Assembly: GCA_016742095.1 (NCBI GenBank)
Contig: JACVCJ010000002.1
Coordinates: 62,001 to 126,000 of the forward strand
Source: Bacteroidia bacterium
GTDB taxonomy: Bacteria > Bacteroidota > Bacteroidia > CAIKAF01
Reading direction: 5' to 3'
DNA length: 64,000 nt
Under the pieces are notes generated by a model. It had not been told where the DNA came from and ran no database searches. It worked only from the letters and a program-made list of their open reading frames with translations. Numbering within the stretch: position 1 is the stretch's first letter; every line of letters starts with the position of its first letter. Positions 20,235 to 55,766 of the stretch are shown here, in pieces. The position numbers and the translations under genes are program-made.

Positions 20235-20804
20235 TTACTCAAAACTCATTTTCATATCCTTATGAGTAATTATACGCTCATAATCACGTATTGATTTGGA
20301 TTTATGAGAAAATATAAACAACCCTTCCAAACTCATTAATTCAGGATGGGTTTTATAAATATTCAAATTCGGAAAATCTGAATCCTGAGCCATATTATAG
20401 TTATATAAAATATAGCATTCATCTTTCCCCAATCGATTATAATCAAACATTGTAATTGAAAATTTCCTATACTCCCCTGAAAAAGGGCTATAAATACGTG
20501 CTAAGATTGGGTACTCAACATCGGGTTTCATTCCTTTCCAATAAATAGGATAACGACCTGTTAAATCCGTCTCATTTTCTCTCTGAGTAGTAAAATAAAC
20601 AGTATCCTTAATACTAAAAGTATAAAAAATTATGCTATCCGATGCACATAAATATACTTTCTGCTTGTCACCGTCAGCATCCACTTCTTTTTTTATAAAG
20701 TCTAAAACCTGATCCCGTTCAGGTTTTAAAGAATTTTCAGTTGGCATCATACAAGATGAAAATAGTATAATTACTGCGATAAATAAATAACTATTTTTTT
20801 TCAT
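20235..20804 (-). CDS. Lipoprotein overlapping RHS gene 1; candidate immunity protein
   Basis: A 189-residue protein with a signal peptide and lipobox S-S-C (Cys at about 18). I recognise no family. The mature part is polar and Lys/Tyr-rich, with strand-like segments such as [10 protein letters not shown] and E-C-Y-I-L-Y-N-Y. Base composition is clearly AT-rich compared with housekeeping neighbours. Its start overlaps the 3' end of the RHS gene by 14 bases, the usual position of an immunity gene after a polymorphic toxin. The equivalent gene of the second module (53936-54460) is also a lipoprotein but shares no visible sequence, as expected if each neutralises its own partner. The immunity role is inference. 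Confidence 0.7.
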
Positions 20805-22002
20805 TTTTACTTTCCTCCCATTTTTTATAAGATGTTTTAAGTCTGTTCATAATATCCTTAAATTCTGTATTTTCTATATCAGGATCATCGTTAGCTGGAG
20901 AGGTATATGGATCAGCGTTATTCTTTTCATAATACGTTTTCCCATATCCTTCAATATGATCTTCCTCTGTTGTGGATTTTTTAACACCCGGATACGCTGC
21001 AATACTCTTCCGGAGGTGGAGATAAACTTCGTGTGCTATTGTTATTATTTCTTCCAGACTTTCTGTCCCATTATTATGATAAATAATAATACCATGCATC
21101 GTTATTTCCTTTTTCTCTTTCTCCGCAAACTCGTCTTTTGTAATGCCTAAGGCTATAGCCTTGTTAGGGCTGGTCTTATCATTCGTTAACGATTTCATTG
21201 AAGCATGTGCAAATGTTTGTCCACTGACAGGAGTTATGATTTTGTCTGTTACTCCAAAATAAATATGAATTTTATCTTCTAAATCCTTTTGGGTAATATC
21301 ATGGAACAATTTTTGAGTAAGCACCTTATCAGCGCCAACAACTCTTAAATATGCTTCCGCCAGTTTATATGCCTTAGGATTATTTACAATTAGTTTTTCT
21401 GCTCCTTCAAGATCGATAGATCGGATTACATCGTTCTCAGCAAATGCATAAACACTATTCCAAGGATAGTCTTTAAATAGCGGATCAACAGACATAAATC
21501 TACCTATACGACTATCGTACGCCCTGTACTCGAACGAATACGAAGTCCCCTCCACGCCATATACCTCATCATCCTTCATCTGCCCATTGTATCCATACCG
21601 ATACCCGGAACTGTCTTCCCTGCATACGATCCGGCTTTCCATACGCATTTCTTCTATCTCTACATAACAGATACTTACCCGGCAGGGAGCGTTAATATAA
21701 AAAAATACCAGCCCCGCCGTATCATTTGCCGTAAAAGTAAACTGATGTCCGCCGGAACTATGGAACCATTGCAGGCTGCTCTGCTGTAGATTGGCCCCGG
21801 CCAGCAGGGAATCACAATCCCCGATATCCGCGTTGAAACTCACCCGGTACATACGCCCCGGCACCGTGCCGGGTATTCTCTTGCCCAATCGCTTACCCGG
21901 CTGGTCCAGTATCATACAGCCTTCATCTGTTTCCGGACGGGTTTGAGCTAAAATGGCGGTGCAGGTTACCAGACCCCATAACAGGGTAAGTATCCTTTTC
22001 AT
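20791..22002 (-). CDS. Miniature RHS-core protein with variable C-terminal domain (module 1)
   Basis: A 403-residue protein. It has a signal peptide (1-19), then a secreted beta-type domain (about 20-130) with conserved [10 protein letters not shown] and C-R-V-S-I-C-Y. A single RHS-associated core follows (about 132-190): G-Y-R-Y-G-Y-N-G, then [16 protein letters not shown]. The C-terminal 200 residues are AT-rich in DNA and carry A-H-E-V-Y-L-H (His-Glu-x3-His) and, about 25 residues on, [11 protein letters not shown], a possible metal site. There are no upstream RHS/YD repeats, unlike classical Rhs toxins of over 1000 residues. Its N-terminal half is highly similar to the protein at 54457-55707. 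Toxin activity is inference from architecture. Confidence 0.8.
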
Positions 22003-53935: not shown

Positions 53936-54460
53936 TTATTTAACATATTCCCATGGGAGCTTTAGACATCCTTTGCCGTGTTTGTACTTATAAAAATAAA
54001 TCCCTTTCTCTATTGAGAAAACTACTCTGCCAGAATCTGATGTATATGGCACTTCGCAATTCGTTATTTGTCCTAATCGTGGAGTTAGAGTAAGATCATA
54101 CACTGTTTCAAAATTCTCTTTTCTATCCGAATTAATTTTCACTAAGTAATCCACAGCAGGAATAATAGCGCTTTTACATGTTTCCGCAGTTATAGTATAA
54201 GAAAATTCTCTTGGTTCAGAATGTAAAGAGTCTTTAAGTATCATAATAGGGCAGCTAGTTTTGCAATCTTTATTAAGATGCGGAGGATAGTATAACAATG
54301 TGTCATTCCACACACTAAAAAACCCGACCATAGTATCCGCATATAATACAGCAACTGGCGCAAGATAATGTGATCCCGGATTTTTCACATCATCCTCCGT
54401 ATTGCAGGAATTAAGGACGAACGATAAAAATAGGGCTATTGCAAATATTTTCCTCATCAT
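53936..54460 (-). CDS. Lipoprotein overlapping RHS gene 2; candidate immunity protein
   Basis: A 174-residue protein with a signal peptide and lipobox N-S-C (Cys at about 19). The mature part contains six Cys (for example K-D-C-K-T-S-C-P) and strand-like segments; no known family. It has no visible similarity to the lipoprotein of module 1. Its ATG overlaps the RHS stop by four bases (ATGA), so it is co-translated. AT-rich like the toxin-like half of the upstream gene. Immunity role is inference from position. Confidence 0.7.
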   Translation of the reverse strand: MMRKIFAIALFLSFVLNSCNTEDDVKNPGSHYLAPVAVLYADTMVGFFSVWNDTLLYYPPHLNKDCKTSCPIMILKDSLHSEPREFSYTITAETCKSAIIPAVDYLVKINSDRKENFETVYDLTLTPRLGQITNCEVPYTSDSGRVVFSIEKGIYFYKYKHGKGCLKLPWEYVK

Positions 54461-55707
54461 TTATCTTCAATTTTTAGTTTTTCAAATACTTTATCAATTC
54501 TATTGAATATTTCACCCATTACACTATTGGGGGAAACCTCATCATTTTTAGGCGAATACATAGGGTTTGTTCCATTTTTATAATATTCCTCTCCATATCC
54601 TTCCTTATGCTCTTGCCCAGGAGTTTTATTCACACCATTCAGATTATTAATGGCATGTAATTTGATTTCATGAGCTAAATCTTTAACCTGATTTTTTCGG
54701 AAAAAGGTATTTGAAATAACTATTGCATGGCCAGTTTTTCCAGCTAACTTTTCCTGCTCAAGTTGAACATAATTTAGTCCATTTTCTGCAACAATTTGAC
54801 TCTGTTGTCGGAAACCCTTATATCCCTCCGGATCATTTTCTCTTAATTGATTCTTTTCAGCTACTGAAAGTTGATCAAAGTAATACGCGCCTCTTATAAA
54901 AGTTTCAAATTTGGTCGCATCAAATGTAATTGAATAATCAATATCACTTGAAGACAGTATATAGAAGTTAATTTTATCCTTATGCTCAGGCTTTGTTATA
55001 GGAGTTAGAAGCTGCTCATTAAGAATATTATCGTTGTTTACTACTTTTGTAAACGTATTATATAAATCTTTGGTCGCATCACTGTTTCCTACTATAATTT
55101 TCTCTAATCCTTCAAGATCGATTGCTCTTATCACATCACTTTCTGCGAAGGTATATGGGCTATTCCATGCGAAATTGTCGGCCAATAAATCCACACTCAA
55201 AAACCGTCCGATACGACTATCGTATGCCCTGTATTCAAACGAGTACGATGTCCCCTCCACGCCGTAAACCTCGTCATCCTTCATTTGTCCATTGAAGCCG
55301 TAGCGATACCCCGCACTGTCTTCTTTACAAACAACCCTGCTTTCAATACGCATTTCTTCAACCTTTACATAACAAATACTTACCCTGCAGGGCGTGTTAA
55401 TATAAAAAAATATCAGGCTCAGCGTATCATTTGCCGTAAAGATAAGCCGGTGTTCTCCGGAATTATAGAACCATTGCGTACTGCTCTGCTGAAGATGAGC
55501 CCCTGCCAGCAGGGAATCACAGCCCTCCAGAACGGCTTTGAAGCTCATCTGGTACATTCGGCCCGGAGCAGTACCGGGGATCTTTCTTGCCAGTCGTTTA
55601 CCCGGCTGGTCCAGGATCATACAGCCTTTATCTGCAGTGGGATGTGTCTGGGACCGGATGGAAATACAGACGAACAGCCCCATGATCAGGATAAGAATTC
55701 TTTTCAT
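54457..55707 (-). CDS. Miniature RHS-core protein with variable C-terminal domain (module 2)
   Basis: A 416-residue paralogue of the protein at 20791-22002. The ATG at 55707 matches the other copy's start. It has a signal peptide, a secreted domain with [10 protein letters not shown] and C-R-V-S-I-C-Y, and the RHS core G-Y-R-Y-G-F-N-G then [15 protein letters not shown]. The C-terminal 200 residues diverge strongly but keep A-H-E-I-K-L-H (His-Glu-x3-His), E-H-K-E-G-Y-G-E-E-Y-Y and Y-S-P-K-N-D-E. DNA is AT-rich past the RHS core and more GC-balanced before it. Together with the overlapping lipoprotein gene it forms a candidate toxin and immunity pair. Confidence 0.8.
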   Translation of the reverse strand: MKRILILIMGLFVCISIRSQTHPTADKGCMILDQPGKRLARKIPGTAPGRMYQMSFKAVLEGCDSLLAGAHLQQSSTQWFYNSGEHRLIFTANDTLSLIFFYINTPCRVSICYVKVEEMRIESRVVCKEDSAGYRYGFNGQMKDDEVYGVEGTSYSFEYRAYDSRIGRFLSVDLLADNFAWNSPYTFAESDVIRAIDLEGLEKIIVGNSDATKDLYNTFTKVVNNDNILNEQLLTPITKPEHKDKINFYILSSSDIDYSITFDATKFETFIRGAYYFDQLSVAEKNQLRENDPEGYKGFRQQSQIVAENGLNYVQLEQEKLAGKTGHAIVISNTFFRKNQVKDLAHEIKLHAINNLNGVNKTPGQEHKEGYGEEYYKNGTNPMYSPKNDEVSPNSVMGEIFNRIDKVFEKLKIEDK

Positions 55708-55734
55708 AAAATAAGGTATTGGTACACATAGTCT

Positions 55735-55766
55735 CAAATATAAAAAACAAAATTAAACTCCTCAAA
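55735..55766 (-). promoter_or_regulatory. Promoter of RHS module 2
   Basis: On the minus strand TTTG (55766 to 55763), a 20-bp spacer and TATATTTG (55742 to 55735) match the Bacteroidota consensus. Module 1 has the related but weaker TATATTTC (22036 to 22029). Confidence 0.55.

Follow-up and report, generated by a model that had tools for sequence, protein, structure and literature searches.

A putative HExxxH metallopeptidase-like toxin domain at the end of two short Rhs proteins, each followed by a lipoprotein gene, in a Bacteroidia bacterium

New antibacterial enzymes come in good part from the variable tails of Rhs proteins, and in Bacteroidota many such tails are still unnamed. The window considered here, a stretch of 64,000 nucleotides from a Bacteroidia bacterium (contig JACVCJ010000002.1), encodes two short Rhs proteins, P0001 and P0002, whose tails share a set of histidine and glutamate residues. 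What kind of domain do these residues mark, and where would it act? An earlier note, made from the letters of the sequence, had suggested a metal-dependent enzyme, possibly a zincin-like peptidase or a nuclease not yet described. The coordinates that it gave are correct in both modules, and its motifs are present letter for letter; the genes lie on the minus strand, which it had left unstated. The features of the two modules are as follows.

20235..20804, minus strand: lipoprotein gene P0003 (189 aa), overlapping the P0001 gene by 14 bases; candidate immunity protein
20791..22002, minus strand: mini-Rhs protein 1, P0001 (403 aa), with signal peptide, short pre-core domain, Rhs core and tail
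21403..21606, minus strand: Rhs-associated core of P0001, residues 133-200, ending in IDLEG (TIGR03696, 42 bits)
20791..21402, minus strand: variable, AT-rich tail of P0001; putative HExxxH metallopeptidase-like toxin domain
21016..21033, minus strand: HEVYLH of P0001 (H324-E325-x3-H329)
20929..20961, minus strand: second motif of P0001, starting with D348-H349; H349 is invariant across six tails
20887..20901, minus strand: SPAND segment of P0001
53936..54460, minus strand: lipoprotein gene P0004 (174 aa), with a 4-base ATGA overlap with the P0002 gene; candidate immunity protein
54457..55737, minus strand: mini-Rhs protein 2, P0002 (426 aa from TTG)
55108..55311, minus strand: Rhs-associated core of P0002 (TIGR03696, 36.5 bits)
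54457..55107, minus strand: variable tail of P0002, of the same family as the P0001 tail
54655..54672, minus strand: HEIKLH of P0002 (H356-E357-x3-H361, 426-aa numbering)
54580..54612, minus strand: EHKEGYGEEYY of P0002 (E376-H377)
54541..54555, minus strand: SPKND segment of P0002

In both proteins a signal peptide (MKRIL..LAQT in P0001, MKRIL..RSQT in P0002) is followed by a domain of ~100 residues, an Rhs-associated core that scores above the TIGR03696 cut-off of 32.5 bits, and a tail of ~205 aa. An alternative start of P0002, the ATG at 55707, would give 416 aa. The full Rhs repeat shell and the delivery domain are absent, only ~130 residues standing before the core, and each protein is therefore proposed as an Rhs-cored toxin module and not as a complete Rhs protein. 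The two are 49% identical end to end (BLASTP), with 68-80% identity in front and core (73% for the front) vs 34-39% in the tails (37-38% over the whole tail), which bears out the strong divergence of the tails reported earlier. Likewise, dN rises from 0.12-0.19 before the core boundary to 0.65-0.73 in the tail. GC content is about 47-48% in the fronts vs 32-33% in the tail and lipoprotein gene, the window as a whole standing at 51%, and in both modules the drop falls where the Rhs core ends. Tail and lipoprotein gene form one AT-rich island (20235-21402 and 53936-55107), and such a break at the end of the core suggests that each pair came as a single cassette. Both modules thus have the anatomy of polymorphic-toxin cassettes; the genes flanking them on either side resemble ordinary housekeeping genes.

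The short, free-standing form of P0001 and P0002 resembles that of orphan Rhs modules elsewhere, but comes here with a signal peptide of its own. Both could be decayed and functionless fragments of this kind, as they have no Rhs repeats and no shell-forming part in the gene, and the gene upstream of the first copy is an unrelated one on the plus strand. Such decay is nevertheless very unlikely, given that both copies keep an open frame, the signal peptide and an intact overlapping lipoprotein gene, and that the front, with a dN of 0.19 vs a dS of 0.79, is under purifying selection.

Ten Rhs cores are present in the same genome, and the tails read behind them are diverse; two ORFs of >3000 aa share the front of P0001 and P0002 and carry other tails. 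The Rhs proteins on contigs C16, C30, C36, C56, C63 and C9 (L022, L024-L029) have tails unrelated to those of the window. By eye only, the tail of L026 was assigned as alpha/beta-hydrolase-like (GHSHGG), that of L027 as Fic-like (HGHMFMNGNKRTS) and that of L028 as possibly JAB-like (FHSH). The tail end of L024 (contig C16), a 3062-aa Rhs protein, reads NEHVGMRATSKEERKEGYGNKD and resembles the KEGYG segment of the window tails; this tail has no HExxxH, and the likeness is probably due to chance.

Both window tails keep AHExxxH (HEVYLH in P0001, HEIKLH in P0002), (D/E)HxEGYGxxYY and SPxND (SPAND and SPKND), as had been described. From the first His of HExxxH to the His of the second motif there are 25 residues in P0001 and 21 in P0002, in agreement with the 20-30 residues given earlier, and four of the seven His-bearing alignment positions of the two tails are identical. 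HExxH, the motif of classical zincins, is rejected by direct reading, three residues lying between Glu and the second His.

Of 247 genomes of the class, 130 have Rhs cores; 100 further core regions were fetched and their tails read. Reading alone revealed one further tail with the motif, L217 (IGHEFEAH..DHRRFG). A motif profile of 54 positions, built from the tails of P0001, P0002 and L217, then retrieved three more, each directly behind an Rhs core and each in another genus: L263 (IIHEAEAH..QEHKDFHG..FSP), L264 (IWHEAKAH..EDHQKFFG..YSP) and L266 (IIHEIEAH..EDHIKYF..NSP). All four relatives belong to other Bacteroidota genera. When aligned by hhalign, the window pair matches L263, L264 and L266 well, at P=1.1e-4 over 183 columns, with HE, both His and SP in register, and the link to L217 is weak (P=0.006). 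With leave-one-out profiles, five of the six tails rank first among 1384 ORFs at E <1e-3, and L217 ranks third in the same set. When the window sister is left out as well, P0002 scores E 0.004 or 0.08, and P0001 E 0.5 or is not among the matches listed, depending in both cases on the training set; in the reverse direction, L266 is found at E 0.002. Judged from these scores, the tie between the window pair and the rest of the family is marginal once the sister is removed, a family of five members excluding L217 is probable, and L217 is a possible sixth. The best matches of the family profile outside the family, among the fetched Rhs ORFs, are the HExxH tails L170 and L212, at insignificant E; HExxH tails are common on Rhs proteins of the class (about a dozen of 153). 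Another Rhs tail, L221 (G045:C96), also has HExxxH (FFHEVLDHGLD) and is followed by a signal-peptide gene; its match to the family profile is insignificant, and it may represent a separate HExxxH lineage.

The six aligned tails are 17-37% identical to that of P0001, and their invariant residues are a linker Gly, one Tyr located in a predicted strand, the H, E and H of HExxxH, and the later His, which is preceded by D or E in every tail. What the six share of the second motif is [DE]H with an aromatic residue after it; five of the six also have a later SP. The second motif had been described as conserved, which is true of HxEGYG in the window pair; its Glu and GYG are not kept in the four relatives, so that the Glu-Gly-Tyr-Gly part is, among the six, specific to the pair. 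The Glu of HxEGYG is rejected as a general metal ligand because its column holds R, D, K and K in DHRRFG, EHKDFH, DHQKFF and DHIKYF. The proposal of a metal-dependent enzyme is partly supported: it loses this residue as a likely general ligand and gains from the strict conservation of H-E-x3-H and of the third His in the six tails, and from its fit to published HExxxH metallopeptidases. When the residues of 153 Rhs tails (35,593 in all) were shuffled, HExxxH with a following H and Y/F arose in 0.056 tails per shuffle; it was observed in three tails that had not been selected by a profile (P0001, P0002 and L217). The full motif is therefore present in Rhs tails more often than by chance.

As the earlier note had supposed, the domain is undescribed as far as Pfam, NCBIfam, PHROGs, PADLOC and PDB sequences go, none of which has a match to it. 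The HMM search of the tails that it had called for returned no named domain in the profile libraries. More precisely, none of the six tails has a relevant match in Pfam or NCBIfam at E<=1, and no tail matches PHROGs, PADLOC or PDB sequences; a whole-tail search of 395 genomes of the class found nothing relevant, and viral contigs, phages and plasmids held no relevant match. The relevant-looking matches outside the genome itself that were obtained with a whole-tail profile (A1; family, order and class sets) and with a C-terminal profile (A2; phylum set) were dismissed as chance, among them L016, with its motif out of frame, and L032, an MsrA/MsrB sequence (EGYHQDYYEKN). A pattern scan of 84,980 species genomes identified no relative among 36 pattern loci; it had fixed the EGYG part, later seen not to be general to the family. 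The loci with the motif in an open frame look like chance, many being low-complexity or antisense frames. Also rejected were L233 (SHEIKLH) and L261 (HHEIGVH), which are short, probably coiled-coil and have no Rhs core, and L238 (HEAYLH), which resembles L-aspartate oxidase; L271 is probably an antisense frame.

AlphaFold models from two-sequence input reached a pLDDT of 44 for the P0001 tail and 55 for the P0002 tail, too low for metal-ligand distances. In both low-confidence models a strand is followed by a long helix with HExxxH at its middle, and the helix after that carries the third His. As modelled, this order of strand, HExxxH helix and His helix is the one expected of a minimal zincin. 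Fold searches with the same models stayed within noise (Foldseek best probability 0.08, VIA-align best Z 2.8), and no metallopeptidase stood out in either.

These data bear on two other readings of the conserved residues. The poor quality of the models would be compatible with an Rhs-borne toxin of another chemistry, such as a pore-former or a non-hydrolytic binder, in which His and Glu are structural or metal-free. We consider this unlikely: H, E, H and H are, besides the linker Gly and the one Tyr, the sole invariants of six divergent tails, and such invariance is what one sees in a catalytic or metal site and not in the core of a fold. In the other reading, the His and Glu residues would bind a divalent metal with which the tail cuts nucleic acid, as a nuclease toxin of the HNH/ENDO VII-like or another type. 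Rhs proteins very commonly end in a nuclease (PMC3482391). The [DE]H motif is found in HNH-type toxins too. In HNH folds, however, a beta hairpin bears DH or HH and a short helix bears the second His, unlike the long helix after a strand predicted for HExxxH in the window tails. No nuclease profile matches the tails, and lipoprotein partners are ill-suited to a cytoplasmic target; a nuclease seems, on balance, quite improbable. The invariant H-E-x3-H and the later His after D or E would be best explained, on conservation, as one metal site.

The lipoprotein genes P0003 and P0004 show no sequence similarity to each other (BLASTP, E 0.75 only), and neither reaches the cut-off of any Pfam, NCBIfam or PADLOC family. 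Behind the six HExxxH tails the next gene encodes a lipobox-like partner in four cases and a signal-peptide protein in one, and there is no partner behind L217. The lipobox-like partner of L264 (LYIYIIIVISLVLGCKN...) lacks a clear start codon in frame, owing either to an unusual start codon or to a frame error in the assembly. Lipoprotein partners suggest, as mild evidence, a need for protection beyond the cytoplasm, and a target in the envelope or periplasm is proposed because the presumed immunity protein would be membrane-anchored outside the cytoplasm. This argument is a weak one, since about half of all Rhs tails sampled in the class (71 of 136) also precede a gene with an export signal. 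Small lipoproteins encoded straight after an Rhs-type toxin are nonetheless reminiscent of Imm65, a lipobox immunity family of Bacteroidetes (PMC3482391), from which P0003 and P0004 differ in reaching no family cut-off and in matching each other at E 0.75 only.

A peptidase need not be a toxin. The tail could serve to process or release the Rhs protein that carries it, or further proteins of the surface; P0001 and P0002 are short and have a signal peptide, and PVC-type metallopeptidases of polymorphic toxins can be self-releasing (PMC3482391). Processing peptidases, however, lie N-terminal to the toxin, and the window domain forms the extreme C-terminus; moreover, the window tails are divergent, AT-rich and each paired with an unrelated lipoprotein. 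Self-processing is hence highly improbable.

We favour the reading that each module is a toxin-immunity cassette, in which a secreted mini-Rhs protein with a zincin-like hydrolase tail is paired with a protective lipoprotein, and give it a probability of roughly 0.55. The ~205 C-terminal residues would constitute a metal-dependent hydrolase of zincin-like type, most likely a peptidase, in which one metal ion would be held by both His of HExxxH, on a distorted helix, together with the His of [DE]H or the adjacent Asp/Glu. As general base, the Glu of HE would serve to activate water. The i/i+5 spacing of the two His in HExxxH does not suit a regular helix, a point against this reading. The tail would probably attack a protein or a peptidoglycan peptide that a competitor has in its envelope or periplasm, and the downstream lipoprotein would protect the producer. 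More tentatively, and with some doubt on our part, the tails may stand for an undescribed clan of Bacteroidota: Rhs-borne HExxxH metallopeptidase toxins with His or the preceding Asp/Glu as third ligand, acting in the envelope and neutralised by dedicated, unrelated lipoproteins. If this is true, a toxin family joins the few enzyme groups known with HExxxH, small natural models (~200 aa) become available for a zincin site that tolerates an extra residue, and the toxin-lipoprotein pairs are open to direct testing. Furthermore, a profile of a short motif, when run on Rhs tails, can connect domains missed by searches with whole domains.

How do these tails compare with known systems? HExxxH is used by the tubulin carboxypeptidases (TMCP) and by dipeptidyl peptidase III (PMC10499314), and the crystal structure of TldD shows Zn or Fe bound via both His of HExxxH on a distorted helix (PMC5810440). 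Dipeptidyl peptidase III (M49), TldD and TMCP1/2 thus share the motif with the window tails, and in these proven peptidases it forms the metal site; they are much larger than the window tails and unrelated to them by sequence. Their third ligands also differ, TldD using a Cys and the TMCPs a residue of the EEG motif, whereas the candidate in the window tails is the His or the preceding Asp/Glu. A second comparison is offered by the HEXXXH metallopeptidase clade described in polyvalent proteins of phages and conjugative elements (Iyer et al., 2017; PMC5512222). In the parts of that account consulted here, these enzymes, for whose motif a helix bend is presumed, resemble the window tails in the expanded motif and the context of conflict systems, and are set apart from them by not being described as Rhs tails; in the window tails a helix at the motif appears in the low-confidence models; in sequence, no Pfam or PHROGs match connects the two. 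A third comparison is with Tox-MPTase1-5, the Rhs-tail metallopeptidases of Zhang et al. (2012; PMC3482391), likewise variable C-terminal domains behind an Rhs core in Bacteroidota, with a His-Glu-His motif and an alpha+beta layout. All five are HExxH-type, unlike the six tails studied here, which all have HExxxH and match no Pfam toxin profile. The tails most likely represent a new and rare family within the known Rhs polymorphic toxins with metallopeptidase-like tails.
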